The position numbers and the translations under genes were made by a program. 64,000 nucleotides of DNA, taken from NCBI RefSeq assembly GCF_964204645.1, contig NC_134028.1, positions 20,248,153 to 20,312,152 on the forward strand. Reading direction: 5' to 3'. This DNA comes from Tubulanus polymorphus. Taxonomy: Eukaryota > Nemertea > Palaeonemertea > Tubulaniformes > Tubulanidae. A model generated the notes under the pieces. The model was given only the letters and a program-made list of their open reading frames with translations, was not told the origin of the DNA and ran no database searches. This document shows positions 15,101 to 37,700 of the stretch, piece by piece (the first letter of the stretch is position 1; each line of letters begins with the position of its first letter).

Positions 15101-18100
15101 ATCTCATTGCCCTATCCCACACAACGTTTAATTCTTTCCCTAACCCTCATCTGTTAGCAATCTATTTGTAGGTTTATTCACGGTAAACAGTTCGAACGGG
15201 ATGTTGATTTGTCACAGAGCTCTCGATCGGGAATCCGTCAGTAAATATGAGATCATCGTTGCCGTGGAGAGAGTTAACAATACGGTACAACCGACCGGAC
15301 GCAAACGTCGGGGTAAGTACCATTCTCAGGGAGATCTCTTATCTCAGTTTCATTTAAGTGCCGAGTTTCGATGCCATCAGGTTCGAATTCCTGCCAGGGG
15401 AGGATGAGTGAAATAGCAGTTTCTGAGTTTGTCTCTGATCCTGGGTTTTATGTAAGAAACTTTATCCGAGTTTGACCTATGACCTCATATCGATGTTCGA
15501 GCTGAGATTATGAGGTCATGAATTTCTAGTAGGCCTATTTTTGTATGTTATGTAACGAAATGTTTGAATATTTTTGCAGCATTGAAAGCGAATGAAGCGA
15601 TCGTTACGATAAATGTAGGTGATAAGAATGATAATCCTCCAATATTCAATGATATCACTGTCGGTGTGCCTGCTGATGCTTCGTATAACTATCTTGTTAC
15701 TACTCTAAAGGTGAATATATAATCTTAGCATGGTTCAATTGAAACCCTGTTCGACCGTTCATGGCTATAAGTTATATCTGGCCCCAGGGACAGCCCTAAA
15801 AACCTGGACCCAGTTTTACAGTTCTTCATTTAAAATTGATTTTCATTTCATATTCAATAAGTCCATCTCTATAGTCGCGTAACTCAATGCTGTAGAATTG
15901 AACTGAGTCCTGATCGCAAGATAATGCATACAGGGCCAACTTCGGTTATCAGAGTTTGTCAACTAGATGCGAACTAATTGAAAGCGATTGTCAGTTAGTT
16001 GAAACTTTAGTCTGGAAATAGTGAACAACGCAAGCTCAGTCGCTGATGCACTAGACCAGGCCTAGATGGCTGACACTGTGAAATGCGTTAAGACTGAACT
16101 AGTGTGTTTGGTTACAATCACTAGTCGACTAACTAAGAAAACCAAAGTTTGCCCTTGCTGCTGAAACTATGTACCTAATTATTCAGTGCTCAATTATTTG
16201 TCAGGGGTCAGTTGCTCAAAAGTTGGTTAAAGTTAACCATCAGGGGCTGGTTGCTCAAAAGTATAGGCCTAATAAGATAAGTAATAAGATAAGTAATAAA
16301 AGATAAGTACCATGATAAGAATACAGTTTTGATTGTCACTATGCCAGTTATCCACTGGCTTACTTCAACCAATTTTTGAGCAGCTGCCGCCTTCTGCTTT
16401 ATTTCATTGTTGTAAGTTGTGGTTGTACGTATACTATTTGTCAGGCTACAGATCGAGATACAGGAATCAATGCTGTTATCCATTATAAAATCACCGGTGG
16501 GCCGAATAAAGCTGATTTCCTCGTCGAAGAGAAAACTGGGAAAGTTTTATCAAGGGTAGACTTCAGTTATTTGACGGCTACAACTTTACAGTTTACGGCT
16601 AAAGCTACTGACGACGCGGGGAAAGGTCTTAGCGATACTGCTCAAGTTAAGGTAGGCTCGGCGAAAAATAGGATCCGCGAAGAGATGCTTCCAATTCAGT
16701 ATAATCGAATCACCAGCATTGGATCCAGGTCATAATTGGGCCTCAATGGAGTCTTGATTTTTTGCACCCTTTGAAAGATACAGAACTATGAACTGCACAA
16801 ATCAGCAAACGCTTCAACACATGATGCAACAAATGTTAGATCACCTCGTGCAGCACCCCCAACCGTTGGTACCCATCTTGTCGGAGATACAAATGATGCC
16901 CTTTTCAATCATCTGTCGCAGCCGTGATTGAGCTGCATGATTGGGTATAATACTGTCTAGGAAAACACTGCTGGATCCAACCCTGGAATCTACATATCTT
17001 TATGAAGCTTTCTGTAGGCCTATACACTCGACCTAAATAATAATTAGTGTGTAGAAGTATTTTTAGTTAAGAAATGCTTGTATGTTAAATATGTTATATA
17101 CATGTATGTCAATTAGTCCATAGAAGTATTTTAAGTTAAGAAATGCTTATATGTTAAATATGTTATATACATGTGTTATATATTTCACGGAAGTTCAAAG
17201 CAATGATTTCCACGAATGGAAACCTGAATATTTTCTCGTTTGTTTCAGGTTTATAAATTAACGGTCAATCAGAGGGCGATTCTCATCGCAAACGTTGACA
17301 AAGCAACATTTCAGAGCAATCAGAATGATATAGTTGGGTAAGCTAGGGTTCGATTGTTTCGTGTGAGTTTAACTTAGAGAGAGAAAGACCTGTTATAATT
17401 TCACCCTCCGATATATTTGTAGGAATTTGAGTAAAATACTAGGGTTTAATGTGATGCCGTTGAAAGTCGAACCTCATATCGAGAAAGCTCAGAAGAAAGT
17501 AGATCCATCGCGGAGTGATATGTATTTCTATGCTATAAACCCAGCAGACGGACGAGTGGTTGATAAAGAATATCTACTTGAGTAAGTTTTGATTTTACTA
17601 AGTGTTCAAACATAGACGAAGAAAACATGGAGCCGAGTGTTAGAACTTATGTCCGAAAATATTTGAGAATTTGCTCGATTCAAATTTTACCCTAGAACTG
17701 TGAAACTAAGTGTAGATATGAGGAACTAGTTACAGAACTATGTTACTGGATCTAGATGGATTGTTCTTTCTCCTCACTCTCAAGTATTGAATTATTGACT
17801 ATACTTTCAGAGCTATAAAGCTGAAACAGAAAGAAATCGACGCATTTTTCAAACGTTATAATTTAGCAGGAGTGAAAGCGATTCCTGTTTTGAACAGCGA
17901 ATATAGAATCGGGTCGGAAATCGGATTATTGCTGTTAGCGATAATTATCATCATAGGCTGCATTCTAGGAATTATAATAGTATTCATCTCGTGGAGAAAG
18001 TAAGTATAATTTTTACATGACAGATTGCACTCAAGTGTGAACTCGATGGACTGTGAAAATTTGTCAGACTTGAGAGTGACATCTTCGCTGGATGGTGCTA

Positions 18101-21100
18101 ACATCTTAGCAAACATCAGAGTTAAACAGTTATCTCTGAGTCAACCCTTTTAGTTCTGACTAATTAATACTCTAAAGTGCTGGAGATAATTGGAGAAATT
18201 TGGAAAAATTCCATCCCATTGTGTTGAATAACAGGCATGTTGCTATAATGCATCTACACCGCGGTGTGGAGTATCGTTAGTTATTGATGTATGACTGTTT
18301 GACAGGTGTTGCCATCTTTTATTACACCACAGTGCAGTGTAGTGTACTAGCAGTTCGTAACCGATTTATACACCGCACTGTGGTGTAGATGCACTGAAAG
18401 GGCTAAACAGTTATCTCTTGAGTGAAAAGGTTATCTCTGAGTTAACAGCTATTTTCAGTTAACAGTTATGAGTTAAAAGGTTATCGCTGAGTTGCACGGT
18501 TATCTCTTTGATTATCTCTGAGTTAAGCAGTTGTCTCTTTAGTTGATCAGATGTGACTTAAGCCGAGTCTACACTAATTTTCATTTTCATGTCAAGATAA
18601 TGATTTCTTAATTTGAATCAATTAATCGTAAAACCTGTACAGAATTTCCGCTTATTTTGTCTGAATGTTTGTTTCAGACGGGAACAAGCTCGTCGAAGAT
18701 TAAGTATATTCGCAACGCCGATGTCGAAAAAGAATCCTGAACATCATCATCGGGGTAGCTCCAGTACGGGCAGCGGTTTATATTTAACCAATCCGCTGTA
18801 CGCTGAGAGTAACATAGAAGAAGAAACCGGGGAACCTTTACCCATGTAAGTATGTCTCCCTAAACACTGATTTGATATAAAAACCGACTTAACAAATGGC
18901 GGACTTAACGAAGACTGACTTGAATTCACTTCTTTTTAATAGTTGATATAGACATGTACAGAAAAGATGACCGTGTCCATAAATCCCCCAATGACATCAT
19001 CAAATTGATTAAGTGTTGATATAAACATGTACAGAAAAAAAGACCGCCACCATAAATCCCCCAATGGACATCATCAAATATAGACATGTAAAGAAAAGAT
19101 GATCATGTCCGTAAATCTCCCAATGACATCATCATCAAATTGATACAGTGTTGATGTAAACATGTACAGAACGGATGACCACCTCCATAAATCCCCCATC
19201 ATCATCAAAATTCTTATTTCAAACACTGCAATGATTCAGCTCTAATGAAGATGGGTTTATAATTTTTAGGACATTTCAATCAAACAGGTTTGTGTTTAAT
19301 CTGTAATTTCTAAGCATGTTTTAGAGAGTGTCAGTGGGTATGTTGTGTGTGTGTAAACACTACGTATGAGTTATATCAGAGCACAAAGAAAACAGAATTT
19401 ATTTGGAATTTGCGGTGGTGAAAGTGGTGATGGTTGTCTGAAAATGGCTCGTAGAATTGAGTCGAAACATCGCTACGGTTTTAGTTTTTCTTCATAATTG
19501 CGAGTTTTTCTTCATTTTATCAACTCTTTCAGTGCGTCTACACCGCATTGCAGTGTATAAATTGGTGATGGATTTTGCTAGTACACTGCATTGCAGTGTA
19601 TCCATGTAATCAGTTAGTTCTTACATCAATTGAAAAATGGCAGCATCGTAAAAGATGGTGAAATATTCGCAACTAATGGTACAACGTGCCAGGGTGTAGA
19701 CACAATAGAGCGGTCTGCCCATTATACAACAAAATTGGGGAAACTTTTTTAACTTTTCAAATTATGTCCAGCACTTTTGGGTATCAGATAGTCAGCACTG
19801 AAAGGGTTAATAGACATTCACTTGTCCACAGAAACCACAGTGGTAAATGGTTGTGTCCTATTTTTACAGAGTTGATTTGAATATGGAGGACTTTGATAAA
19901 GCTTCTTCTATGTAAGAGAAACTTGAATTCAATTGATTCAATGATAAACGTCTTTTAATCGAAAATTTTCATCAATTTTTTCTCATGATTTTCTTTCCGT
20001 TGGTTTCGAGTTTCTGCAAACTAAACACACACACATCGCGTCCAAAAAAACACATTTAAAGTTTTGATAATAAGGATATCTATTTCATCATCAATTTAAA
20101 AAGAATACAAAATTACAAACGGAATACATGGAATGAATTGTAGAACTATGAAAACTGTGTTTTCGAATGAACAGTTAGCTTAGTAAAAGATGAATAATAT
20201 AACGATTATATATAACATAATGATTATGATTCATTGTCTTATATAGCGGCGTACTAATTGAATTTCATCGCAGCGCTTTACTGAGTATAAAAACATAAGA
20301 ATCATTAAATCATTAAGATACAATAAAACGATGAGAAATTAAGTAGATATAGTAGATAATCACACTTCAAATCCTGTTCTAAAAAGGTAAGTCTTAAGAG
20401 AACGTTAGAAGTCATCAATTGGCTTTCCCTGATAGTTTGAGGAATAGGTGAGGTGCTGAGATCATAATTAAAAAGCTCTACTTCTATAATTTTGTATCGG
20501 CAAACATTTGACGTATGTTTTACATTGTTATTTTTTCGTAGATGTTATTTAAATCAATACGATGAGATGATGTATTATTTAAGGTAAAACATTGTTATGG
20601 GTTTTAAGGTGACTGAGGTGGCTTGCTCCCCCACCTACAATACCAGGTGACTGACTCCCTTGCTAAGGTGCCCTGGTTAATTATCCCCATTCTGGATTGG
20701 ATTTCAGACGATTCCTGATATTTTAGATTTTAGGTGTTTTTAGAATATGATCTTAGTTTATGTTAAGTTTAGCTTTTTCAGAACATTATACTTGCTTATG
20801 GCACTTATATTTTGGTTTGATTGGGTTATTTTGGGATTGATGGGCTATTTTTTCGTATCAATTTCCAATACTTTGCTTTCATTTTTACCTTGGTCTTTAT
20901 CATCATCAATTTTAGATTTTAATTTTAGATTTCATTTCATAACATTGTTTGATATTGAAAGCAGGAGAAACTGTATTTTTTGAGAATTCTTACTTATTAC
21001 TGGTGGTTTTGAAATTCAAATTTCTCATCATTCTCAAATCCTAGTTTTCTATATCTCTGATGAATATAGGGTTGTTTATAGATACTGCAGCTTATTATGG

Positions 21101-24100
21101 TTGATATGAATTTAGATCCTGAAACAAGAGTTTCACAGTCATGGCTTAGATTTAGATTTAAGACCAAGTTTAAGCCAATTTTGGTCCTTTGACCAATATA
21201 AGCAGACCAGTCTAAGCTCATTTTCGTTCTATAACCAATTTTAACAACTTGAAAGAAGTCTAAGCTCATTTTCGTTCTAAAACCAATCTAACAACTTAAG
21301 ACCAGACTAAGCTCATTTTTGTTCTATGGCCAATCTAACAGCTTAATCCAGTCTAAGCTCATTTCGGTTCTAAGCCAATGTAAACAATTTAACGACTAGT
21401 CTAAGCTCATTTTGGTTCTATAACCAATCTCTAACTACTTGAAACCAGTCTATAAGCTCATTTCGGTTCTATATATAACCCATCTACGAACAAGACCAGT
21501 CTGCACATTTTTGGTTCTCTAGCACACAATTTAAGACCAGTTAAGATTTAAGACCAAGCATTTGCATATTAAGTCATGACTGCAATAAGGCCCTGGGGCC
21601 AGTTGCACAGTCGTGACTTAAGTCTTAAAGTGGTCTTAAATCTTAAGACTGGTCTTAAGTTGTTAGATTGGCTATAGAACAAAGTTGGTCTTAGACTGGT
21701 CTTAAGTCTAAGCCGTGACTATGCAACTGGCCCCTGGTTCTTAGAGTTGATTAGTTGGCATTTAGATTGAATGTCGGGACCGAGATCAAATTTAATTTCT
21801 CGCACATTCTCACGATTTCTGTTTTTATATTTCATTTTCTATGTAAATTCACCGTCGCTAGCGATGAAGATGGCAATCCAGTGATTATAGTGAATAGTGA
21901 CACGGACATAACAACTTCGGACATCGAAACATTACGTTCAGCGGCTGCAGCTACATCTATCAATCGCAACGGACATGCACCTGTGTAAGTTCAGTTCTGC
22001 GCACCTGATTTAAGTTTCTAGTTCCAGTTTTAAACGACTCTTTATATCCACGATGTGTGGACTTGCCCAATTTTGTCAGGACAGTGGATAACTGACATAG
22101 TGATATATATAGCCAAAACTGCTTTGTTATCGTTATCATGGTGTTTTTCGGCAAACTGAGAGACCGAAATATTTGTTCTTTTCTAGTATCGACGCTTTAT
22201 AAGTAAATTCTAGAAATTACTGTTTAGATACAGAATTTCTTTATGCGGTTGGTACACGCAATAGTTAGGATGATTTTAAACATTGCAATACGTACTCGTA
22301 TGATTGCCAATTGTTAACTGCCTCTCCCTCTGCCATTTATGTGTATAATGTATGTGCATACTTTCGACGGTTTCTAACCCTTCACTGAATTCGTTAAGAA
22401 TAGTTTCAAGTGTGTGTAAATCAATGAACTGATTTGTTAATGTATGAATTGTTTCACGGCTGCTTGTGCTTGATACAGTGAACAGGAATCTAGCTCCGGT
22501 GATGAAAATACACGATTATGAAGTACGTTTGAATCGAACTAAACCTATGGATTCGGTTCCATAGTTGCGACTTACGCCGCGATCGCATAAAGACGATTTG
22601 GCCTGTGCCAGATTCGCGGCCCGTATCAGGACCGAGTCAAATACTGAACGATGCTCAAACAAAGGGTAGTGAGTCATTTTCGGAACCAGTAGCAATTCTC
22701 AAGTAATTTGACCTGTACTAAAATTAGGTTGTGATCTGACGTTTTTGGTTGGGCCAAACACGCACGGGCCCATTTGGCACCCCCGGGAACAATTGTTCAG
22801 GAACTAAGTTGGCACAGGACAAATCTGGCCCAGGCCAAAAATGCTGGTGTTATTGGGGCTTTTGAGTTAACTCAGAGTCAAGACGAGTTCATGATTCAAC
22901 ATTAGAGTCAAATTATAAGCCGGAACTTTGGAACTGGGTTCTGTCGTCAAACTCAACCCAAATCACCCTTTTTCGAATCATTTTTCGACAGATTTTCAAT
23001 GGTTATTTTTACTTTGCTCTGATAATTATTCGTTGTAGTAAAAACACATCACGTGTCGAGATTTATATTTTCAGCCATTGTCGTCCTGAGCGCAGTGGTA
23101 TCTCTGTGCTGGTGTATCATACCTTCAAATGGCTATACTGGGTTCAGGTGTTCAAACCAAGATAGATTTTTGTCTGAATTATTAATCTGTCTATTGCTTG
23201 AATGCGTCGAATTGCGAGTAATTGAAGGTATGGTATGCGTAAGAGTACCAAAGCCTCGAAGTTTCAGCATGGACACTACAAACAACACCCCTCCCTAAAA
23301 TTGATCTGCATGTTCAATTTATATGTATGTGTTCACACTTGCCAGTTATATACATTACATAAAACATTTTGAGCCAGGAACACCCTACCCTGGCCCCCGC
23401 CCTGTAGCCCTCCCCTCATACATTTTGGAGCCCCCAGCCCCGAAGCTCCTCTGACTTGAGCCTTTTTCCCATGCGACTTTCCGAATTTTGAGCTACGTAA
23501 GTCCCCCAAATCCCCCAAAGTCACCCTCTCCTCATGAATCTCAGTTCTCCATCGAAATTCACATAAATTGATTCATTGATTTATTTGCTGTTATTCTAAA
23601 GGTTCTCAGATATTCCCGAATCATTCGAGCAGAAACTTGTGCTGCCATCTATTATCATCAGTAAAACTGCTGATAACGATTGGCCGACGATTGCGCGTAA
23701 AATGGGCGTAACCGAGGAAACGATCGATACATTGTTGTCGAGCGATTACGATAGTTGCCTGTTGTTAGATACGATTACGGAATGGGACATGAGACGTTTA
23801 GGGCTCGTTAAATCGCAACGTAAAATAATCCGAGGTGTCGTCCAAAAATTACGCGCTAACAACGGCAAAACAAAGATGGCCGCCGCGATGGCTAAATACC
23901 GCCAACGTGACGTTATGATTGGTAACGTTTTTTTTTTGTTTTTCGATGTCTTATTTCTTTATTTAGTGTTTTATTTACGATGCATTGTTGCCAGAATGTT
24001 GTGTATAGATTGTTGGACTGGTTCAGTCGGTCATTGCGCTAGGATCGGACTGGTCACCAGTTATTGTCATCAGTATTCTCAATTTCAGTTATACTGAAAA

Positions 24101-27100
24101 ATTCTGGATCCAGTTCAACAGTTGTAATTGTAGATACCTATACTTATTGCAGTGGGCCTTATTGAAATGAACACATTTTGGGTCCTGAACCAGGCCTGTT
24201 CCGAGTTTTTTTGAGGGGCTGTTCTATTTCTAAGGGCACTTTGTCACCATGAAAGGGGCACTTTCCTATTGAAAAAAGGACATCTTACATATGAGTACCT
24301 GAATGAATCATTTCAGAATGGATTACTTTTCATTTTCCAAAAAACATCAAAATTGTATACAAATTTTGAAATATCTTGACAAAAATTTTTCAACACTGAT
24401 TTTTTGAAGGGCACTTTGAAAATTTTATGGAGTTTGTTCGCTACCCCCAAACTGTCTCTCGGCGCGGGCCTGTGAACTGGGTCCTGATCTAAATAAGTGA
24501 ATTTTGAGAATTCTGATCTATTTTCTAATCTCTATTTCGTCTCTCTATCTCCTTCTCTTTAACAAACTGTTTTAGCCGCTGTAGAATAAGTGACTCTTTT
24601 TAGGTTAAGGTCAGGGATGTGACACTGCGAGTTTCTTTATTTGTACAACAGTCAGTGATGGAAAATTACGCGATTAGGAACTTCAATTTCAGACTGAATG
24701 ATAGATACGTGCTGTATATCTTCAATGAGAGGCTTGATTTTTGTTAGAACAGGTGCATAAGATTCACATTACATAGAGTAGACTCCACCTAAACCGGTAC
24801 CGTCTATCCGGTAATACGTTCAATTCGGTAAAATTAATATATATCCATTTTCTACTGTTTTTCAATACAGATATCACCTAATGTTTGGTAATGTAGGCAT
24901 GGAAACATATTTTTAAACTTTCAAATTATGGAGTCAATTTTCTCTTTTTTAACCCCTTTCAATGATGACTTTTTGGATATCCTTCAATGAAGTGAAGAAT
25001 GGATTGAAAATCCATGATTGAAAATCCATGTTTTAGGTCCACTGCCAGTGCTTTCTGGTCCTAATAAGACTTCTATGAGGTATGTTCCACCACAAAACTG
25101 ACTGAGATGCCACCTAGTATGCTCTCAAGTCAAATTGAAATAGACATTTGTCCGGTATCACTCTATTCGGTAATCCGCCTCATCCGGTAAAATGTTGACT
25201 TCATTTCGGCCGTTTATTCAGCATCTAAAGTGGTAAACCGTAAGGGCACTTGACCAAAATTACAACGCTATCGACCTTCTATCTCTGTCGGTGATTCATA
25301 CTAGGCCCTATGTTACTACTTCATTGATCTGTAGTTTTCATTCATACGCAATCGCGTCAGGAGTGAACCAAAGCGAAGGAAAGTCTCGTGAAATGCATGA
25401 AATGCGAAGACTTTTATAGCAAGGACTTGTGTCTGAAATTTAATATAACGAAGCAAACCCGCAGCGATTCGCTAATATCTGATCGTATGAGATACTGAGG
25501 ACCGCTGTTAGGTTCAATGATTCCATATTTTTATCCATTGATCGATTTTCGCGGTTCTTCAAATCAGTAACCGTTTAATTCGGTAAAAAATGATGGTTCC
25601 AACTTCACCCGATTAGGCGGAGTCTACTGTAGTGTCTCAAACATGGATGTACCCCCAACCTGGATGCACGTATCCCTCCCATGATGTCCGGTTTTCATCT
25701 GTTTTTACTAATCAACTTTAGGGCTCTTTATTTTTGCAGCCGGGCTAAAAATTCCCTAAATCCCGTCGCGCGATCATCCGATTCGGAGAAACGCCGTCGC
25801 GATTTTAAATGCCCGCCATTAGTTCTCTGCTGCATTTGTCGTCGGGAACAACGATCTGAGAAATCCGATACGGTTGCGACAGTTACGTCGCCCGTTGAAA
25901 GCGCGTCCGGTTATTTCGAACCGGAGCCCGATTACGACGAGGTAGTTTTAACGATATCCGTCCGCTTTCAGTCGTGTGATCGTTTAGTAACGCCATCTAT
26001 TGTCTATATTGTACGTTATATTTTACAAATTCTTACGTATCATAATTTTCAAATCGCATTTTTCTGATTCTGATTCTGTACCCAATCTTTGAAATAATCG
26101 AGTTTTTCCCTAACCATTGCTGTTCCACCATCAACATGATTAGATCTTATACTTCATTATCAAAATATTTCTTATGGTAATCAATGTTCTATCACATTTT
26201 TAGGATTCCATTTAGTACATGCGGTTACACTACAGGCAGTAACTGGACTACCATATCGTCACTTTAAAAAGTCCATTCGAATCAACCCCGGTAGTTTAAA
26301 CAGATTGCCACCCCCCCCCCAAAATCATTATTCAATATCAAAATCAACTGGTTTTATATTCATAAATGTTCTACTACAGTCACATTTTATTCCCTTTAAT
26401 CAAGTTTGTTTTTCTCACAAATATCAAATATTTTTGGAACATTCTCTTCATTCTCTTCGCGTCATTTTGTCTCTTTTCTGATATGTAATCAACATTTTCC
26501 ATTTGTAAGATGTTTATATTCGATGAAATGGTGCCTTGCCGCCATCTTTAATTTGATATAATTTAATTCACCGTATGGAGATGTACCCATTTAATTCACC
26601 TATGGAAACACGATTCACTGATATTGCATGTCAATTTTTCATGTTATTCTGTGTTTTCAACAGGACAATTCTGTGAGGTAAAATAAAATTCAAATCCATG
26701 TTACTCCTTCCACTTCACATTACGACAATTCATTTCTACGTTTCGAATCGTTCCGATTCAAGATACGGAAATGAATTGTCTTGCAGTCAAACCTCGCTTA
26801 AGTCGTCATCAAATGGTACGATAACCACACTCAAACGTGGTGAACAGATGATAAGATAAATCCCACAATTTACAAATTAAAAGAAATCTAAAATCGAGAA
26901 TTATTTATTGAAACAATCTAAAATATAAGAACACAACGTTTCGATCTCACACTAGAGATCATCGTCAGATGTGTGACTCATCTGATGACCATGATCTGTA
27001 GTGTGAGATCGATACGCCGTGTTCTTATATTTTAGATTGTTTCAATAAATAAATTCTCGATTTTAGATTTCTTTTAATTTGTAAATAGTGGGTTTTTATC

Positions 27101-30100
27101 TTATCATCGTCATCAGATGAGACGTCATATTGTCGAGGTCGTGTTTATTTTTGAGACGGATTTTAGTCGGAATTTGGATAAGATGCCATCCAAGGCTTTA
27201 ACAATGACAACTTAGGCTTCAGTTTGACTGTTTAAAGAGTATTTTTAGAAGCTTCGCTTTGGTTTTAATGTCATTCTGCTGAAACGGTGCTTTAGAGTAA
27301 CCGATGCTTTTAACCGCTATGTAACCGAGTATAAACTGTCGCTTGTGGTGCTCGAAGTTTTCAACTCGTAGTTTTTGGGAACGGAGTACATTTGTCTAAT
27401 TAGGGTCTTCCTGCCCGGTATAGGGCAAATTCCAGTTTGTACAATTTTGGTGGTTGAGTCTGTTCATTTTGCTCAAGTGATATGTGTTTTTGTTCTGTAT
27501 TGGTTTAGTTTATTCAGCATCAGGCTACAACTAAAAAGATCTCGGATATTTAGATCTTTAACGCTTTTAATTTATTGAGTAAGTTACCCAAAGTGATCAA
27601 ACTTTTGAATCTGTGGCCACCTGACGTACCTACGTATAGGTTTTGATTGGTCTTATGTCACCTGATCCACCCCTAGGGTTAGTCCGTATCCGTACAAACT
27701 AACCCTGGGTTTAGTCAGCTATTGTAACCCTAGCTGCATCAGTTCCAGGCCAGTGTACTTAACCCTAGGGTTAGCCCATTGCTGGTCATTGCTGACCCAT
27801 TGCTACCATCCGTAGGGTTATTGAGTAACCCCAGGCTCATTCCATCAGTGTGGAGGCGGTATAGTTAGGGTTACACTAGCTGACTAACCCTAGGATTAGA
27901 CCATCAATCAACTTGATCAATCACACGATACAACCTGACCACACTTGCTAGAATTACCCTCTCTTGAAGAAGTCAACATCTTGGCTTAGATCCAAAAGAG
28001 AAACCCAAATTTTTTAACTAAGAGTTAAACATATGTATAGTTATTTGAAAATGTTAATTACCTATGTAAATATTGATTTACATATTAAGTGGATGTGATT
28101 AATAAAACTAAACTGATGGCAGAGTGGCCACTGACCCGGAAAACCTGGAAACTTAGGGAATAAGAGAAATCAAGAAAAAATCAGGGAATTTGACAAGTTC
28201 AAATTTCTCTGATTCACTCACTGAAATTTTGTGTAATCACATGGAAAAAATCAGGGAAAACTCAAGGGATTTGTGAATGGGCAGAAAGTGGCCGGCCTGT
28301 ATAGCTCAACTCATATTCCCCTGTTCAGAATTAACAAATGACGTTTTTTTAGTGAACAAGAGTGGAAAGAAATATATTCTAATTCTTGATCCTATTTCTA
28401 TTAGTCAGAGAATCCGAAATCATTCACCAGGTGAAATAATAGAAACTACGTTCATGTTTATGAACGTTCCCGGCCAATCAGGTTAGGTTTATGATAATCT
28501 CCCGAAGCGTGAGCGTTCATTCGATTCATAACAATCAATATCAAATCATTTCAATAATACTGATTAATCGTGATTTATTTTATTAGTTAATTGAACGTAC
28601 TGAATTTTAAGTGATTTCTTCCTGTAAATTCGTAATTATGATTTTTGTTATTTATCACATCATGAAATCAAAGAATCATTTGTCAGATCTAATCAAATAC
28701 AGTGGACTATGTTTCTTGCTTGTATTTGGACCAAATCTAGCCAGGGAAGGATCCAGCGTGCCCCTGTATTTTTTGGTGAGGAAAGAATTTTTTCACTATT
28801 GTCAGAGCCACTATATACACTGTGTACAAAAAGCTAGTTTGCTGTAGCCACAAATTTGAATTGCAAGAAGGAGGATTGACCGAATCTTCTTCATCTAATG
28901 AATTATTTTCCTTCTTAATGCATGAATGACTATGCTCAGAATGCACCCCATTGAGCATCTATTATTCCAAAGTTCTCTAGGGGAGGGCGCCAAACCCCCC
29001 AATCAAATACAGTGGACTATGTTTCTTGCTTGTATTTGGACCAAACCTAGCCAGGGAAGGACCCAGCGTGCCCCTGTATTTTTTGGTGAGGAAAGAATTT
29101 TTTCACTATTGTCAGAGCCACTATATACAATGTGTACAAAAAGCTAGTTTGCGCCGAACCCCCCCCCCCCCCCCCATGGCTTAGTGCCTCTCGGTGCGGA
29201 ATGGCTTGCCATTCAAGTAGCGCCTAAATGCTTACATTTGCGCACCCTTTTTCAAAATGCTGGGTCTGCCCCTGCTAGTAAGAGTTTGTGCGATACACTA
29301 GTAAACTGAGTCTCCACTGAGATTGGATGGAATGAATACCCCGCGAAAGTTTTAAGAAATTGACTTGATTAATAGCATTTTACATCTGTATTAATCCAAT
29401 AAGTAATAATAAATGATTTACAATGAGAGAATGGCGTTTTAATGAACCTAAACTGTGGTGGTATTTACAGATATTATATATTTTGGTATAGGCAGTGATA
29501 GATGGTTTGAAATAGGTGAAACTAAGGTTTAGAAGGTAACTCCTATATTGAATAGATCCTGCAATCAATGAACAATCATTACGAATTCATTAAAAATTTT
29601 TTTTGAATATTAGCTTTTCCGTAATTTAGGGATCGAGGGGTCTAAATGAATAAAAAAGCCTGATTTAGTGTTTGCCTCCCTATAGACTCCTATGATACGT
29701 AACCTGCTGCATGTTTCTAGTTTAGAATTTAACTGTTTTATATCTTATATTTTATGAATTAATCGTTTGCTTATTAATGACCGCTTGCTTGGGTTACATT
29801 TATCAAAGCAGTTTCCTAAAAGAAATCAAAATTCACCTTAATTTCTGGTAAGTCAAACAGTAGACTGCGCGCTTGCCTCGAAGCAGATTGTCGCTGTTTA
29901 TCGTGTGCCAGGGTAACCAAGTACTAACAATTTTCCTACTCCAATTCATGTCATGAGAACCCATATCATCGCTCCGACTGCCCCCGAAGCAAGCGCAGAC
30001 TACATCATTTTCGAAATGTCCAAACAAGAGTTATTGGCTATTCCGGGATAAACTTCTTTTGAAAATCGCACGGAGTTGATAATAATGTGAAAATATACCC

Positions 30101-31472
30101 TACATACCAGGCACGGATCCAGGATTTTTTCCAGGAGGGGGTTCACAAAAAATATTAATGTTAAACTTCCGACTAATATCTCTAATGATAGGGGGCCTAT
30201 ATGGCATATTGTTTGGCCAAACATTAGCTGATATGGTACCGATTACCTGGCACTGTCCGCCCGCTTTGTCTTGAGTACGTTTCTTCAAGAAAACAATTTT
30301 TTGGTAGCTGAGCAGGGTCACGACCTGAACTCCACCCCTCTGGATCCGCGCCTGCATACGGGTCAAAATATCTAATATATAAGTATTTTAGATTCTTATT
30401 TTAAGATTTGTCTATGGGTATTTCATTGTTATGTTAACTCGGGGCCAGTTATATAGACCGGTATCAACTTTAACCCGGTGTTTAACTCGATTGAAAGTGA
30501 ATTAAGTTAATCCCCGGGTTAAAGTTAACAACGGTCTATAAAACGGCACTTAGGTTTATATTATTTATTCATTCATCGAAACTGCTCTGAGTTTTTAAAT
30601 CCGTGTCTCTATCATAGTTCTCTCAGTAGTGGCTTATCTACGAATTTTAGCCTCTTTCCGTGTTGTTTCAATTCCCAAGTAAAGTGTAAATTCCGTACAA
30701 AATTCCACATTAATTCATGCCTCAAAACTAAGATTTACTCAAGTGTTGAACCCGAGTGAGATTACATTATAATTCCAAGCATGAACGAAATGGAGGCATT
30801 TTAGAATATTAGAATATTGGAAATAAAAAAAAGATGTTTTTTGTAAAAAGTGAAAAAGCTGGCACCTTGAAAATATTCGATTCTGCTTTAATTGATATAT
30901 TTTTTATGAATCATTTTTTTAGCTATGCCAGAAATAAACTGTTAGCAAAACGGCAAAGTTTCGAAACGCAAGAAATTCGAATGGACCTCGAACACGATTA
31001 CTACGAGACGTCCACCGATCCGGCCCCGCTGTCGACAACGCCACCTATGTACGCGATCGCTAAGGCGAAAATACCGAAGGATAAAAAACGATCGAAAGTA
31101 GCTTTTAAAGACGACACCGGGCGGCGCCCTGAGCACCCGGTCCAGACGCGAGCCGAGGCTCAAGGCGTAGTGGAAGATTATACTTACGAGAATCCTAGTT
31201 TTACCGATAATTCGGGTTTGATTACCGCCGGATGTTCGGGGACTCCTAAAACCCAATCAGCACCCCCTATACCACCTGTCGATTATGATAATTCAGTGAG
31301 TGATTCACCATTGAACTCATCACAAGGCTTAGGAGGGTGTTCTACGGACCACAGGCCCCCACCAAGTCCTAATCATATGCCTAATTCACAGAGTATATTT
31401 CAGCCTGCTATTATTCACAGTAGCACTACAGGTATTAATATTGAACTAGATGAAGGTATTACCCATCTCTAG
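173..31472 (+). CDS. Large cadherin, cadherin-23-like, 5'-truncated by the window edge
   Basis: This is a single-pass calcium-dependent adhesion protein at the cell surface. The window holds one partial and 14 further EC repeats, a membrane-adjacent domain, a transmembrane helix and the cytoplasmic tail. A phase-consistent serial chain is 27 EC exons, 17249-17337, 17423-17581, 17811-17999, 18678-18845, 19870-19911, 21862-21984, 25740-25941, 26664-26677 and 30923-31472, giving 2086 codons and ending in I-T-H-L. Every junction joins in frame. Vertebrate protocadherin-15 has 11 EC repeats and cadherin-23 has 27; both carry a ferredoxin-like MAD domain before the membrane and PDZ-ligand C-termini. 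At least 15 repeats here argue for cadherin-23-like over protocadherin-15. The 5' end, signal peptide and first repeats lie left of the window. Exact orthology is inference. Confidence 0.88.
420..560. repeat. AT-rich inverted repeat around the TTCGACTTATTA motif
   Basis: The intron between exons 173-313 and 687-803 holds copies of a motif like ttcgacttattatg, first in one orientation (about 440-485) and then inverted (about 500-535). It can form a hairpin. Nothing else is recognised in this intron. Confidence 0.5.
4816..5193. repeat. MITE-like repeat, CAGxGTGGC ends, copy 1
   Basis: Starts cagcgtggctactgac and ends agtggccagcctgg, so the ends are inverted (CAGxGTGGCyACT against AGTGGCCxxCCTG). 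The interior has ggggaaaactt and aaatgggtggcaag blocks. Related copies occur at 28120-28299 and about 45838-46115. CAG...CTG ends resemble non-autonomous hAT elements, which is a tentative class. Confidence 0.55.
5550..5774. repeat. Hairpin next to a truncated piggyBac-type MITE
   Basis: Positions 5551-5568 (aatcccacaatatatcag) and 5625-5642 form inverted arms, with further pairing inside (gatgaaaagtt against aacttttcatc). Immediately after, 5650-5774 matches the right half of the TTAA-flanked MITE seen in full at 53108-53390, ending gtcagcactaaaagggttaa. Both lie in the intron before exon 5804-5923. Confidence 0.55.
7033..7330. repeat. Repeat with tRNA B-box-like inverted ends, copy 1
   Basis: Left end catcctcccctggcagggatt and right end ccctggtgggggaggatg are inverted copies, each carrying a pol III B-box-like ggttcgaatcc (right) or its complement (left). 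The interior has agatatcctgttttattt and cctcagcgattgttataca blocks shared with copies at 41756-42244 and about 50575-50830. Fragments of one end occur at 15370-15406 and 63612-63650. It may be a SINE dimer or a MITE. Confidence 0.6.
7905..8620. repeat. Minisatellite of GAGTTAAACGGTTATCTC units
   Basis: About 700 bp of roughly 18-19-bp units alternate between gagttaaacggttatctc, aagttaagccgttatctct and gagttacatagttatatct, fading into divergent units at the 3' side. It lies in the intron before exon 8694. A diverged array of the same motif is at 18110-18560. The reading frame open through part of it is a by-product of repeat length. Confidence 0.85.
10565..10640. repeat. (ATT)n microsatellite
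   Basis: An interrupted run of att trinucleotides with occasional atc lies in a cadherin intron. Confidence 0.9.
11161..11192. other. Perfect 14-bp-arm hairpin
   Basis: Arms cagcaacagtgtat (11161-11174) and atacactgttgctg (11179-11192) are exact inverted copies around a 4-nt loop. It sits 15 bp before a hAT-like MITE and is not explained by any coding feature. Confidence 0.8.
11208..11562. mobile_element. hAT-like non-autonomous element (MITE), copy A
   Basis: Ends caggggtggatccag and ctgaatccacgcctg are imperfect terminal inverted repeats with the CAG...CTG ends common in hAT-type MITEs. The interior is AT-rich with no transposase. Another element with related ends is at 30108-30354. Confidence 0.6.
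11815..12180. repeat. Tandem copies of the GACTGGTCTTAAGTTGTTAGATTGG motif
   Basis: Includes two direct copies of a roughly 115-bp block (gaccagaaattgaccattgatt to agactggtatta), followed by shorter units. The same 40-bp-scale motif recurs at about 6290-6470, 21130-21740, 31530-31720, 33810-33900 and 34340-34430, in either orientation. Confidence 0.65.
13918..14165. mobile_element. piggyBac-type MITE, divergent copy
   Basis: Bounded by TTAA at 13918-13921 and 14162-14165, with degenerate ends tcttttcagtgc and gtactgagagggttaa. The interior has the hallmark gcattgcagtgtat and aatggcagcgcg blocks shared with 19520-19810 and 53108-53390. It lies in a cadherin intron. Confidence 0.6.
17249..17999 (+). 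other. Cadherin membrane-adjacent (MAD-like) domain and transmembrane exons
   Basis: Three exons (17249-17337, 17423-17581, 17811-17999; phases 0 to 2, 2 to 2, 2 to 2) follow the last EC repeat. They encode about 110 residues without cadherin motifs, including F-Y-A-I-N-P-A-D-G-R-V-V-D. From memory, the ferredoxin-like MAD domain next to the membrane in protocadherin-15 has a comparable Y-A-I-D-P stretch followed by a helix; the helix here is K-L-K-Q-K-E-I-D-A-F-F. A hydrophobic run of about 22 residues rich in Ile and Leu then ends at F-I-S-W-R-K, a basic stop-transfer. The MAD assignment is a motif-level call, not a structural one. Confidence 0.8.
18110..18560. repeat. Diverged GAGTTAAACAGTTATCTC array split by a MITE fragment
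   Basis: Units like those at 7905-8620 flank a piece of the piggyBac-type MITE in inverted orientation (about 18240-18405, ending gatgcactgaaagggcta). All of it lies in the intron after the transmembrane exon. Confidence 0.6.
18678..18845 (+). other. Cadherin juxtamembrane cytoplasmic exon
   Basis: This exon has symmetric phase 2-2 and encodes 56 residues. It begins with the basic run R-E-Q-A-R-R-R directly after the transmembrane helix. It also contains N-P-L-Y and ends in an acidic E-E-E-T-G-E-P segment. Acceptor gtttgtttcag and donor gtaagt are both strong. It is separated from the transmembrane exon by a 678-bp intron that contains a minisatellite and part of a piggyBac-type MITE. Confidence 0.82.
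18940..19210. repeat. Tandem repeat of about 70-100-bp units
   Basis: Four imperfect copies of a unit contain gatatagacatgtacagaaa, ccataaatcccccaat and gacatcatcaaat. They lie in the intron between exons 18678-18845 and 19870-19911. Confidence 0.7.
19520..19810. mobile_element. piggyBac-type MITE, near full length
   Basis: Left end ctctttcagtgcgtctaca and right end gtcagcactgaaagggttaa are inverted. TTAA is intact on the right (19807-19810) and mutated on the left. It lacks any coding capacity. It ends about 60 bp before the 42-nt microexon. Confidence 0.65.
19870..19911 (+). other. 42-nt cadherin microexon, phase 2-2
   Basis: A 42-nt stretch is bounded by acceptor tttttacag and donor gtaaga. 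Read in phase 2 it encodes an acidic 14-residue insert (VDLNMEDFDKASS plus split codons). Both flanking cytoplasmic exons also use phase 2, so it can be included or skipped without changing frame. It lies just after a piggyBac-type MITE. No transcript evidence is available; the call rests on splice sites and phase. Confidence 0.6.
21130..21740. repeat. Inverted cluster of the AGACTGGTCTTAAGTTGTTAG repeat
   Basis: About ten copies of a roughly 40-bp unit run in one orientation (gaccagtctaagctcattttg and similar). They are followed by copies in the opposite orientation at 21630-21710. The cluster ends with cagttgcacagtcgtgactta and its complement, suggesting a foldback layout just upstream of cytoplasmic exon 21862. 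Confidence 0.6.
21862..21984 (+). other. Cadherin cytoplasmic exon, branch point for alternative tails
   Basis: A 123-nt exon with symmetric phase 2-2 encodes a sequence starting DEDGNPVIIV and ending G-H-A-P-V. The donor is gtaagt. Three downstream acceptors match its phase: the short terminal exon at 22479, the SAM-like exon at 23602 and the exon at 25740. That makes it a plausible splice branch point. Confidence 0.75.
22479..22521 (+). other. Alternative terminal cadherin exon ending in class I PDZ ligand
   Basis: After acceptor gatacag, 43 nt in phase 2 encode EQESSSGDENTRL and then TGA at 22519-22521. The C-terminus T-R-L fits the class I PDZ-ligand rule (S/T-x-hydrophobic), like the C-termini of cadherin-23 and protocadherin-15 that bind harmonin-type scaffolds. 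No canonical AATAAA was seen close downstream. Use of this exon would give a tail of about 120 residues. Confidence 0.55.
23602..23921 (+). other. SAM-like domain exon of the cadherin tail
   Basis: A 320-nt exon (acceptor ttctaaag, donor gtaacg; phase 2 to 1) joins in frame to the 21862-21984 exon. It encodes about 106 residues. The C-terminal part, I-T-E-W-D-M-R-R-L-G-L-V followed by R-K-I-I-R-G-V-V-Q-K-L, matches helices 4-5 of SAM domains (L-T-E-x-D-L-x-x-L-G-I, then R-x-K-I-L-x-x-I-x-x-L). The N-terminal part (D-W-P-T-I-A-R-K-M-G-V-T-E-E-T-I) is also reminiscent of a death-fold helix, so the class is SAM-like at best. The phase-1 exit does not fit exons 25740 or 30923, so it must lead to its own ending. 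Candidates are 24579, where a few codons reach a stop, and 28329. Confidence 0.6.
24191..24472. mobile_element. MITE with CAGGCCYGT ends, copy 1
   Basis: Starts caggcctgttccgag and ends ctcggcgcgggcctg. Another copy is at 51107-51375 (caggcccgtgttgagc to cgacctgggcctg). Both carry ttttttgaggggc, a grey zone of gggcactttc and a terminal ctacccccaaac block. Confidence 0.65.
24775..25632. mobile_element. pogo/Tigger-like non-autonomous element
   Basis: Ends tagactccacctaaaccggta and taggcggagtctactgta are inverted and match the CAGTAGACTC style of pogo/Tigger termini. The interior repeats aattcggtaaaa. A partial inverted copy lies at about 54679-54960. No transposase frame is seen. Confidence 0.6.
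25740..25941 (+). other. Cadherin cytoplasmic exon, cysteine- and arginine-rich then acidic
   Basis: A 202-nt exon (acceptor tatttttgcag, donor gtagtt; phase 2 to 0) encodes 67 residues. It contains E-K-R-R-R-D-F-K-C, then C-C-I-C-R-R-E, and ends Y-F-E-P-E-P-D-Y-D-E. It can follow 21862-21984 or, equally in phase, the transmembrane exon directly. Its GC content and codon use stand out from the AT-rich flanks. Confidence 0.72.
26664..26677 (+). other. 14-nt cadherin microexon linking phase 0 to phase 2
   Basis: GACAATTCTGTGAG lies between a good acceptor (tgttttcaacag) and donor gtaaaa. Its length (4 codons plus 2 nt) is what is needed to join the phase-0 end of exon 25740-25941 to the phase-2 start of exon 30923-31472. 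It reads D-Y-D-E, D-N-S-V-S, Y-A-R-N. A similar D-Y-D-N-S-V-S string recurs later in the terminal exon. Without it these two exons do not join in frame. Confidence 0.55.
26818..27108. mobile_element. Palindromic MITE, copy 1
   Basis: Long near-perfect inverted arms run from gataagataaa (about 26850) to tttatcttatc (about 27107), including cgatctcacactagagatcat and its partner. The outer tip has cgataaccacactcaaacgtggtg, itself a small hairpin. A second copy is at 32627-32826. Confidence 0.7.
28120..28299. repeat. MITE-like repeat, CAGxGTGGC ends, copy 2
   Basis: A compact copy of the 4816-5193 family, starting cagagtggccactgacc and ending aagtggccggcctg, with terminal inverted repeats clear by eye. 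Confidence 0.6.
28329..28430 (+). other. Possible cadherin tail exon (weak)
   Basis: After acceptor ctgttcag the sequence is open in the frame needed by the SAM-like exon (phase 1), reading LTNDVFLVNKSGKKYILI and onward. It either ends at a gtgaaa donor (28430, phase 1) or runs to a stop at 28484-28486. It sits immediately after a repeat element ending at 28299. Only phase and openness support it, and it may be chance or repeat-derived. Confidence 0.25.
28690..29153. repeat. Direct duplication of a roughly 150-bp segment
   Basis: Segments 28692-28842 and 29004-29154 are nearly identical (from aatcaaatacagtggactat to aaaaagctagtttgc, with only a few differences). They are separated by about 160 bp and the second copy abuts a poly-C tract at 29159. 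This is recent compared with other repeats here. The intron between 26677 and 30923 shows no other firm gene feature. Confidence 0.8.
30108..30354. mobile_element. hAT-like non-autonomous element (MITE), copy B
   Basis: Ends caggcacggatccagga and tctggatccgcgcctg are inverted with CAG...CTG tips. It carries a ggaggggg / cacccctc inner pair. No transposase. Confidence 0.65.
30923..31472 (+). other. Main terminal exon of the cadherin, C-terminal PDZ ligand
   Basis: A 550-nt exon after a strong polypyrimidine acceptor (cattttttttag) encodes 182 residues. It has a basic start (Y-A-R-N-K-L-L-A-K-R), tyrosine motifs (D-Y-Y-E, D-Y-T-Y-E-N-P), a proline-rich centre (A-P-P-I-P-P, P-P-P-S-P) and the terminus D-E-G-I-T-H-L. 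T-H-L is a class I PDZ ligand, like the I-T-E-L I recall for vertebrate cadherin-23. It could also join straight to the transmembrane exon in phase, giving W-R-N-Y-A-R-N-K. Confidence 0.82.
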
Positions 31473-32465
31473 ATATTTCAGGGTTCAAAACCACGCCCTG
31501 TGAATGGAGGTATTCATGCCCTTGATTCAGTTGGCTCAGATGCAAAAAGTCTTTTAAAGTTGTTACATTTGGCTATACAACCAAGATGAGCTTAGAGACT
31601 GGTCTTCGTCGTTAGATAGACTATGAAACCAAATTGGGCTTTGACTTGTCTCAAGTTGTAGAACAACCAAGATGGGCTAAGACTGGTCCAAACAGTTTAA
31701 GCCTTGGCGGTGCAACTGAACCATAATGCCATAATATTAAGGATTTCATCTAATCTACAATTTATGATTACTCTTTTCAGTTCTGCGTATAAAATGTATT
31801 TATCACAATTTGTTACATACTTTTTCTTGTCACTTTTAAATTATTTCGCATGTCATTCGTTACAAGTTATAAGTTGATGTATTTTAAACATACAGAAACA
31901 TTCCAGATTTTGATCTCACTTTTTTCCGTGTCTTAAACTTGTAAAAAAAGTGTATTGTTAACGTCTTGTATATATATATACATAGAGTGTAGATTCAGCC
32001 ATTTTATTTGTAATAGGGGTCATTATTATTTTATTTTTATTATTTATTATGTACGCATTAGGGGAGGGGAAGGGGTCAGTGCAATTGCGTCCTGTAATGC
32101 ATAATGTATATGAAAAAATGGCCGATTTTGCGTACAGAGGGGGAGGGGGTTGAAAAATTCAAATCTTATACGTACGTAATAAATGAATGATCCCATACCA
32201 GTAATCTGTTAGTTATTTGTCCAATGTGAATATATTCAAATTAAAGATCTGATTTTATTCCTAACTTTACAACTATATTTATTCATATATGTATTTAATG
32301 ACCATGATATTCTATCGATGAAAGATGTAAATAGTATTGAAATTGTTTAAAGTTATAGAAATGAATTATGGATCTGTAAAAATTTTATATGAAGCTGCAT
32401 TTTTATAATAATCATGCGTTTTATTAAAACATATTTTACAAATAAAATTGAAATAATGAATCCAT
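31473..32465 (+). other. Cadherin 3' UTR with inserted MITE and polyadenylation signal
   Basis: AT-rich sequence follows the stop. A degenerate group of the gactggtcttaag-type repeat lies at about 31530-31720, and a short inverted-repeat element at 32016-32194. A canonical AATAAA at 32441-32446 in a T/A-rich context is the best candidate end. The element at 32016-32194 itself carries AATAAA in its terminal repeat and could supply an earlier site. Confidence 0.5.
32016..32194. mobile_element. Short inverted-repeat element in the cadherin 3' UTR
   Basis: Ends ggggtcatt...tacgcattaggggagg and acgtacgtaataaatgaatgatccc are inverted. A second copy at 53457-53620 has the same ends and the same central aaaatggccgat. 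Each end supplies an AATAAA. Confidence 0.6.
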
Positions 32466-32626: not shown

Positions 32627-32826
32627 TTAATAAGATAAAAACTCACTATCTACAGATTACGATAATTTAAAAACAAGAATTTATTTATTCAATCTAAAAT
32701 ATAAAGAATACACGACTTTTCGATCTCACCCTAGAGATCATCGTCAGGTGTCACACCTGACAATGATCTAAACCAGTTTTTATCTTATTATCCGTTCACC
32801 ATGTTTCAGTGTGGTTATCGTTCTAT
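32627..32826. mobile_element. Palindromic MITE, copy 2
   Basis: Shares ataagataaaaac, tctaaaatataa, cgatctcaccctagagatcat and the tip gttcaccatgtttcagtgtggttatcg with 26818-27108. One arm is shorter. From here to 34769 nothing else is recognised beyond two small clusters of the gactggtcttaag repeat (about 33810-33900 and 34340-34430). Confidence 0.6.
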
Positions 32827-34769: not shown

Positions 34770-37700
34770 TCAAGTTTTCTCTACTGGTACCAGTAATTGT
34801 GTCTCTTTCTCCGTATTTTTTTCATCGTTCTTATTTTTCTTACTAATAAACATCAGCAGCAGCAGAGCGGGAATATGAATCAGACTGAATCGGAAAAGTT
34901 TACGCGACGTTCCGCTGTCCGCTCGTTTATAAAACCTCCACGCTAGGTAACTGCAATACAGATTCAGCGGTAGAGAGTCGACCGCGAACGTCCACGTCGT
35001 CACGTCTAATACCGGCGCCAGGCAACATAATCCTATTAATCCGACGCTGTGTCGCAACGCGACGCGTTTACATAATCCGGGATTAACTACCGACATCATC
35101 TGATACCCGGCTCTCGAATAATCCGGGCGTAAATTCCAACTCAACGCGTTGAAATGAGGAAACTGCCAACTGTAGAGAATAGCACCGAGTAACAGAGCCC
35201 CTGAAAATAAACAATCGCTAAATCAGTAGTTAGAATACTTACTAGATGTATTAGAAACTGTCTATTGGGGGATTAAGGGTAACAATGGGGTGTTGCACTA
35301 GAGGTGTAATCTATGGTATTTAGTCATTTTATCAGTCCAACCCGTCAGATCCTGGTATTCACTTTAGGGGGCTGTGAGGAGATACAAGGGTAGAGAAGTC
35401 ACACTGGTATGTGTGGAAGGTACATAAAGAGTGGTTGTGGAGGAGTTGTATGAGTGGGGAGAGTGTGTTTAGGTTGAAGGTGAGTATATGGGGGTTAGTG
35501 TAGGAAGGGGTTTATTGAAGGGAGGTGTAAACGTAGGAAGACACGTGTAGGAAGGGGGTGTTAGTATGAGGGGGGTTAGAGTGGGTGTTACGGAAAGGAA
35601 GGGGGTGTTAGTGTAGGGATTGGGTGTTACTGAAAGGGAGCGGTGTTAGTGTAGGGAGTGGTTGTTAGTATAAGGGGTGTTAGTGTAGGGAGTGGGTGTT
35701 ACTGAAAGGGAGGGAGTGTTAGTGTAGGGAATGGGTGTTACTGAAAGGGAGGGGGTGTTAGTGTAGGGAGTGGGTGCTGCTGAAAGGGAGGGAGTGTTAG
35801 TGTAGGGAGTTGAGTAGGTGTTACTGAAAGACTGAAAGGGAGGGAGTGTTAGTGTAGGGAGTCGAGTAGGTGTTACTGAAAGACTGAAAGAGAGGGAGTG
35901 TTAGTGTAGGGAGGGGATGTTGCTGAAAGGGAGGGAGTGTTAGAGTAGGGAGTGGGTGTTACTGGAAGGGAGGGAGTGTTAAGTGTAGGGAGTCGGTGTT
36001 GCTGAAAGGGAGGGAGTGTTAGTGTTGGGAGGGGGTGTTACTGAAAAGGGAGGGAGTGTTAGTGTTGGGAGTCGGTGTTGCTGAAAGGGAGGGAGTGTTA
36101 GTGTTGGGAGGGGGCGTTACTGAAAGGGAGGGAGTGTTAGAGTAGGGAGCGGGTGTTACTGAAAGGGAGGGAGTGTTAGTGTAGGGAGCGGGTGTTAGTA
36201 TAAGGGTGTTAGAATAGGGAGTGGGTGTTACTGAAAGGGAGGGAGTGTTAGTGTAGGGAGTGGGTGTTAGTATAAGGGTGTTAGAATAGGGAGTGGGTGT
36301 TACTGAAAGGGAGGGAGTGTTAGTGTAGGGAGTGGGTGTTAGTATAAGGGGTGTTAGAGTAGGGAGCGGGTGTTACTGAAAGGGAGGGAGTGTAAGTGTA
36401 GGGAGTGGGTGTTAGTATGAGGGGTGATAGAGTAGGGAGCGGGTGTTCCTGAAAGGGAGGGAGTGTTAGTGTAGGGAGTGGGTGTTAGTATAAGGGGTGT
36501 TAGAATAGGGAGTGGGTGTTACTGAAAGGGAGGGAGTGTTAGTGTAGGGAGTGGGTGTTACTGAAAGGGAGGGAGTGTTAGTGTAGGGAGTGGGTGTTAC
36601 TGAAAGGGAGGGAGTGTTAGTGTAGGGAGTGGGTGTTAGTATAAGGGGTGTTAGAATAGGGAGTGGGTGTTACTGAAAGGGAGGGAGTGTTAGTGTAGGG
36701 AGTGAGTGTTACTAAAAGGGAGGGAGTGTTAGCGTAAGGAGGATGTATTCATTACCTGCATCCAGTGATCCGGTACATGCAGTCCAGCCGATCATTGGAG
36801 GAACTGCTCCAACTAACGCTCCGATCCATGTGTTCACTATGTGTGACCTCTTCATCGGAGTATAAATGAACGAATATAAACCGTAATTAAATAATCCTAG
36901 ACTAGCTGTCAATGGGTTTAATCCTAGGTATAATGTAGTTAATCCTAGAGTACCGCAAATCCCAGCGAATGTAACAGCGTGAAGAGGACTGAAAATAAAC
37001 ATAGATAAATATAGAATACTAACCCAGTGATTGATAGCAGGGTGGGGTGAATATTCAGTGATTGATAGCAGGGTGGGGTGAATATTCAGTGATTGACAGC
37101 AGGGGTGGGGTGAATATTCAGTGATTGATAGCAGGGTGGGGTGAATATTCAGTGATTGACAGCAGGGTGGGGTGAATATTCAGTGATTGATAGCAGGGTG
37201 GGGTGAATATTCAGTGATTGACAGCAGGGTGGGGTGAATATTCAGTGATTGACAGCGGGGGTGGGGTGAATATTCAGTGATTGAAAGCAGGGTGGGGTGA
37301 ATATTCAGTGATTGATAGAGGGGGCGGGGTAAATACTCAGTCATGAACAGCAGGGGTGGGGTGAATATTCAGTGATTGATAGAGGGGTGGGGTGAATATT
37401 CAGTGATTGACAGCGGGGGTGGGTGAATATTCAGTGATTGATAGCGGGGGTGGGGGTGAATATTCAGTGATTGACAGCGGGGGTGGGTGAATATTCAGTG
37501 ATAAACAGCAGGGGTGGGGTAAATATTCAGTGATAAACAGCAGGGGTGGGGTGAATATTCAGTGATTGATAGCGGAGGTGGGGGTGAATATTCAGTGATT
37601 GACAGCGGGGTGGGTGAATATTCAGTGATAAACAGCAGGGGTGGGGTGAATATTCAGTGATAAACAGCAGGGGTGGGGTGAATATTCAGTGATTGATAGC

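Follow-up and report, generated by a model that had tools for sequence, protein, structure and literature searches.

Cadherin-23 (CDH23), a protein with about 27 EC repeats, and Protocadherin-15 (PCDH15), members of the adhesion-protein family that makes the tip link of hair cells, are the closest described counterparts of the gene considered here. In published accounts, PCDH15 has three tails, CD1 to CD3, which differ in their C-terminal part (PMC4119359), and exon 68 of CDH23 is a cytoplasmic, alternatively spliced exon of 105 bp encoding 35 residues (PMC7397384, PMC10018040), so that variation of the tail is already known in the PCDH15/CDH23 class. Docking of CDH23 on harmonin through its C-terminal PDZ ligand has been published as well (PMC10018040). 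With respect to invertebrates, a CDH23-like giant cadherin of a sea anemone exceeds the vertebrate number of repeats, with 44 predicted (PMC3899209), and one gene of a planarian has been named cdh23 (PMC12626421); CDH23 has been reported as restricted to deuterostomes, from a sample including just two protostomes (PMC10734073). In literature listings, no CDH23-like protein that switches between two PDZ ends came up, at most a single title was returned on alternative splicing or PDZ ends of the CDH23 tail in invertebrates, and the titles returned for SAM domains in cadherin tails were not on point, none of which implies absence from print.

The locus lies in a window of 64,000 nucleotides, the whole stretch of DNA analyzed, from the nemertean Tubulanus polymorphus (GCF_964204645.1, NC_134028.1, positions 20,248,153 to 20,312,152, forward strand), and the genome in which it was searched comprises 267.8 Mb in 77 contigs. 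According to an ab initio gene model, the tail region forms the 3' end of a single giant cadherin gene on the plus strand, which extends some 23.6 kb beyond the upstream edge of the window and whose modelled N terminus is the uncertain part. Coding scores of the model were trained on nine long cadherin open reading frames (7,992 codons) from this genome; its splice matrices started from a general consensus and were then retrained on this very gene. When the modelled protein was cut into four pieces covering the ectodomain, 31 PF00028 stretches were recognized (6+10+7+8), and the encoded protein is predicted to consist of about 31 EC repeats followed by a membrane-adjacent domain (MAD) of the PCDH15/CDH23 class. 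The MAD is modelled on two plus-strand exons, 17249-17337 (phase 0 to 2) and 17423-17581 (phase 2 to 2), and ends in exon 17811-17999, also on the plus strand, which carries the transmembrane helix and exits in phase 2, as the preliminary description of this DNA had stated. The joined MAD matches the Pfam family PF23206 (PCDH15_12th) at E 5.8e-11, above the family cut-off; thus, a MAD12-type domain as in Protocadherin-15 is found, and it precedes one single transmembrane helix, as in Cadherin-23. In a hydropathy scan of the modelled protein, the helix of 17811-17999 was accompanied by one other hydrophobic stretch, which a wrongly placed acceptor at 21766 produces as an artefact. A genome search for a second MAD gene, in which matches come exon by exon and so do not establish absence, found this gene alone.

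The gene had been described as cadherin-23-like, which is only partly right, because the membrane-proximal part matches PCDH15 better than CDH23. The number of repeats suggests CDH23, its 27 repeats standing against 31 stretches here, and very many EC repeats, a MAD, a C-terminal PDZ ligand and in-frame tail cassettes are shared with that protein. PCDH15, in contrast, is described with 11 EC repeats (PMC10018040), and resembles the present gene in having a MAD beside one helix (PF23206) and a tail spread over several exons, as well as in giving the best membrane-proximal match. Against solved chains, the last repeats plus MAD matched PCDH15 at E 2.8e-38 (6c13) and 3.6e-32 (6eet) but CDH23 at only 3.6e-17 (8tri), 8tri and 6eet both being 474 residues long; the very long CELSR1 chain 8vy2 heads that list through its many repeats. 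With a query that began at the end of the last repeat and continued past the MAD and helix into the tail, PCDH15 6c14 reached E 3.9e-9 versus 0.0017 for CDH23 8tri, the latter lacking any match to the helix. Taken by itself, the MAD is slightly nearer CDH23 (E 0.056 versus 0.33 for PCDH15, both weak). Among solved chains, the expectation that the membrane-proximal sequence is nearer CDH23 than PCDH15 came out negative. Searches of the PDB with blocks of EC repeats were rejected as a guide to orthology, being undiscriminating as many cadherins match. Since a repeat number suggestive of CDH23 is mixed with a PCDH15-like membrane-proximal part, we call the gene a MAD cadherin of the PCDH15/CDH23 class and a member of neither family. 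The sea anemone protein, for which three helices and an outside C terminus are predicted (PMC3899209), differs from the present one, which has one helix and a predicted intracellular tail. If the model holds, a protostome possesses a long cadherin of the tip-link class bearing a membrane-adjacent domain.

The mir-2 family marks protostomes, and hairpins of this family were observed in the genome in two clusters (C2:21716367-21717689 and C3:4553143-4554909) along with one single match on C4; 7 of the 12 listed matches exceed the gathering score of the family, 60 of 59,543 candidates having been scored. On this evidence the genome is probably that of a protostome.

Downstream of the helix, the acceptors at 18678, 19870, 21862, 22479, 23602, 25740 and 30923 all accept phase 2, as previously claimed. 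From 17423 on, this holds for 8 of 8 acceptors (17423, 17811, 18678, 19870, 21862, 23602, 25740 and 30923, leaving out 22479, which is also phase 2, and two small bridge exons of phase 1 and 0) versus 5 of 59 upstream (Fisher 2e-7), the upstream intron phases coming from the same gene model; for the tail alone with the bridges included, the count is 6 of 8 (p = 1e-4). The sharing of phase exceeds chance. It would permit in-frame skipping of 18678, of 19870, of 21862, of 23602 with its bridge, and of 25740 with a microexon at 26664, and of all the arguments for alternative tails it is the strongest, but it may equally reflect inherited intron placement. The earlier proposal that 18678, 25740 and 30923 could each come straight after the helix holds for these three exons, and equally for all seven because one phase is common to all. 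That many tails are possible in frame, however, holds at the entry side only. Exons 18678-18845, 19870-19911 and 21862-21984 are symmetric and exit in phase 2, whereas the 320-nt exon 23602-23921 leaves in phase 1 and the 202-nt exon 25740-25941 in phase 0, and consequently neither of the latter joins its downstream neighbours in frame. Direct joins of 23602 to 25740 (...DVMIAGLKIP, then stop), of 23602 to 30923 (AMPEINC, then stop) and of 25740 to 30923 (LCQK, then stop) all run into a stop within a few codons, and the two joins to 30923 were rejected; a tail containing 25740 must therefore have an extra exon before 30923, and the junction from 25941 named in the preliminary description needs one as well.

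The individual exons, all on the plus strand, are unequally supported, good acceptors and positive coding scores occurring together in 18678, 23602, 25740 and 30923. The juxtamembrane exon 18678-18845 contains NPLY (acceptor 6.6, donor 6.1, coding 6.9 bits). The 42-nt exon 19870-19911, VDLNMEDFDKASS, has a coding score of -2.5 bits and is left out by the gene model; its sites score 5.2 (acceptor) and 3.1 (donor), and no pair as good occurs on 16 kb of the reverse strand. The acidic exon 21862-21984 can be accepted on its coding score of 28.0 bits despite a very poor acceptor (-8.5), in place of which the model favours 21766. The basic, cysteine-rich exon 25740-25941 (acceptor 7.1, donor 0.2) scores 32.9 bits, but its other two frames also score high (30.1 and 20.2), so that the coding score does not fix the frame; only one of the frames is open. 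The model favours donor 26010 over 25941, both of phase 0. The last coding exon, 30923-31472, encodes 182 residues (acceptor 6.6, coding 56.8 bits) and ends in ...DEGITHL before TAG 31470-31472, a C-terminal class I PDZ ligand as in Cadherin-23, with AATAAA downstream at 32178 and 32441; its end was wrongly split by the gene model, and the whole exon was retained in the final model run. In searches with the three exons 23602, 25740 and 30923, protein copies elsewhere in the genome were absent, each exon finding itself alone.

A frame-keeping link between 25740 and 30923 is provided by a 14-nt microexon overlooked in the preliminary description, 26664-26677 on the plus strand (phase 0 to 2; acceptor 2.8, donor 2.7), which with donor 25941 reads ...DYDE-DNSV-SYARNK...; no other 0-to-2 bridge in 25990-30880 has both sites above 0. 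The stretch matches itself alone in the genome, and a bridge as good arises in 33 of 200 dinucleotide shuffles, with 0.24 expected from the reverse strand; accordingly measured, the evidence that it serves as an exon is moderate, not strong. The helix exon followed by 18678, 19870, 21862, 25740, 26664 and 30923 forms one open frame with a tail of 367 residues ending in ITHL. A TGCATG, the Rbfox-type element, stands 39 nt upstream of the microexon (within 26600-26663). If the donor of the microexon is not used, the frame continues as DNSVR into a TAA stop at 26679, with AATAAA immediately behind it at 26682, and 26664-26687 is a possible short 3' end.

The DNA is most simply read as the end of one giant-cadherin gene with one main tail, ending in ITHL, and optional phase-2 cassettes, a reading to which we give a modest balance of probability. 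Alternative tails are not needed, because the well-supported exons other than 23602 chain into one ITHL frame; what stands of the alternative-tail interpretation is that the gene is a MAD-class cadherin whose introns allow in-frame skipping, which falls short of requiring such tails. In the one-tail reading, the MAD and helix would carry tension from the ectodomain, and ITHL would dock the protein on a harmonin-type PDZ scaffold. The cassettes 18678, 19870, 21862 and the pair 25740 plus 26664 could each be kept or skipped while the common C terminus remains unchanged, and would tune other contacts; 23602 would be attached via a small, low-confidence exon or used as a frame-changing alternative. 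Against this reading, 23602 fits only via a repeat-borne bridge, and the gene model skips 19870, uses 21766 for 21862 and 26010 for 25941, and splits the last exon. In favour of it, a single path of the model takes in 18678, 23602, 25037, 25740, 26664 and 30923 together with the 3' part of exon 21862. Should the model hold, the phase-2 tail would be a concrete case, testable with RNA, of tip-link-type proteins varying their intracellular attachment.

Exon 23602-23921 on the plus strand (phase 2 to 1) is the piece that is hardest to place. It has a coding score of 38.4 bits, with negative scores in both other frames, an acceptor of 6.3 and a donor of -0.4. Its helical product resembles a SAM domain, an identity to be treated as a lead rather than a result. 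No Pfam match exceeds its cut-off, the Death family coming up at E 0.0094, below cut-off, and none of the Pfam SAM models is listed for it at E up to 10, in a search whose HMMER filters drop most weak matches; the best solved chain has E 0.31. A SAM profile was built from 11 domains found in this genome (of 24 listed matches, 12 were taken as loci, and one of these, L027, was left out). Against this profile, hhalign gave a score of 21.9 and a probability of 22%, a score reached by none of 300 shuffles (highest 19.3), and in hmmsearch 11 of 1000 shuffles scored higher than the exon. AlphaFold predictions made without relatives had four helices each at a mean pLDDT of 50 and 56, too poor to be a basis for a fold search. 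With regard to the link from 23602 to 25740, the doubtful 43-nt candidate 25037-25079 on the plus strand (acceptor 3.9, donor 4.8, coding -6.3) stands alone among in-frame bridges in having both sites above 0, and a tail including 23602 and this candidate would have 488 residues. A bridge as good is found in 46 of 200 shuffles, with 0.28 expected from the reverse strand, and the surrounding stretch has at least 43 further genome matches at E up to 0.01; lying in a dispersed repeat, 25037-25079 was rejected as a confident bridge. The tandem acceptor 30946, into which 23602 with its phase-1 exit could splice without a bridge, scores -6.7 and was likewise rejected.

Among the competing explanations, the one that fares best is that of true alternative tails as in PCDH15, with short NTRL, SAM-like and long ITHL forms chosen by tissue, which we nevertheless regard as unlikely. 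Beyond the run of phase-2 acceptors, it draws on the different exits of 23602 and 25740, which make exclusive use natural, and on their weak donors, equalled by 4 of 59 upstream donors, which would suit regulated exons. The membrane-proximal part is also nearer solved PCDH15, a protein for which CD1-CD3 tails are described (PMC4119359). NTRL, the residues before TGA 22519-22521, fits the class I ligand pattern, and two TGC triplets, at -18 and -12, precede the 22479 acceptor, another standing at -16 before 23602. These triplets resemble the UGC element of SRRM4-dependent exons, and the genome contains two sub-threshold matches to SRRM_C (E 0.028 and 0.2). However, a short NTRL tail depends on 22479-22522 (plus strand), a candidate exon of 44 nt that is no better than chance pseudo-exons. 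Its acceptor (-2.4; donor 2.7) lies below those of all 59 modelled upstream exons, the lowest of which is -0.7 where sites down to -12 were allowed, and only the acceptor of 21862 is weaker still; its coding score is 3.2 in frame versus 6.5 in another frame. On 16 kb of reverse strand, 23 site pairs 12-150 nt apart score at least as well (1.44 per kb). Among such pairs enclosing a stop upon phase-2 entry, a class I-like end occurs in none of the 47 reverse-strand pairs and in 8 of the 51 forward-strand pairs, 22479 included; for both strands together the count is 8 of 98, all 8 forward. An acceptor shifted by 7 nt, 22486, scores -5.8 and was discarded.

Polyadenylation speaks against separate tails as well. 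Neither AATAAA nor ATTAAA occurs between 22500 and 26682, where the first AATAAA stands, and for this reason a stop at 22519 would precede further junctions; the gene's own terminal exon, in contrast, is followed by such signals. An end of the PCDH15 CD type, in which a tail has its own stop-bearing exon end and a usable 3' end, was found neither at 22519 nor after 23602, so the known CD tails have no parallel in poly(A) signals near these two candidate ends. Site-pair density and acceptor rank argue against taking 22479 as a proven exon, and it is most likely a chance pseudo-exon rather than a tail. The earlier claim of two stops after class I PDZ ligands is borne out as far as the letters go, TGA 22519-22521 following ...NTRL and TAG 31470-31472 following ...ITHL, but the exon bearing the former is doubtful. 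The sequence gives no support for a second PDZ tail, a result which keeps a plausible, unproven isoform out of the annotation.

If 22479 were used, a lowered output of protein would be more likely than a second PDZ tail. As a poison exon, its inclusion would destroy the transcript and thereby regulate the level of the protein, given a stop placed one base before the donor (GTACGT at 22523) with junctions still to follow at 23921 and beyond and no poly(A) signal until 26682. This explanation is more improbable than that of alternative tails; it requires the same doubtful exon and a rule of nonsense-mediated decay that is inferred for this animal. Still less probable is that 23602 forms an alternative C terminus without a PDZ ligand, by intron retention or by a frameshift into 25740; its phase-1 exit, the direct reading AGLKIP followed by a stop, and the position within a repeat of the sole in-frame bridge with both sites above 0 are consistent with such an end, but the stop would precede two more junctions, and with the repeat masked the gene model still bridges in frame, if more weakly (24089 plus 24604, or 25335). 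Just as doubtful is a tissue-regulated switch at 22479 by which, on a protostome tip-link-type cadherin of about 31 repeats, a short PDZ tail with NTRL would alternate with a long tail bearing a SAM-like domain and ITHL; such a switch, if true, would be an alternative-tail system mixing the length of CDH23 with the membrane-proximal part and tail choice of PCDH15.

Dispersed repeats at 24960-25120 and 22573-22720, in introns of the tail, have at least 40 further genomic matches each; 22479-22522 itself is unrepeated, the latter repeat beginning at about 22573. The last intron contains a direct duplication of 152 nt (98%), 28691-28842 and 29001-29152, and a hairpin-like inverted repeat, 26858-27096, of which related copies lie at 32630-32826 in the 3' flank. 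Downstream of the cadherin, on the opposite (minus) strand, 34773-37179 holds exons of a UbiA prenyltransferase (PF01040, E 4.6e-9 and 5.4e-10), which by eye we take to be probably a COX10 gene. Further along the window, also on the minus strand, a rhodopsin-type receptor of 335 residues (7tm_1, E 1.7e-17) is encoded by a single open frame at 48976-49980.
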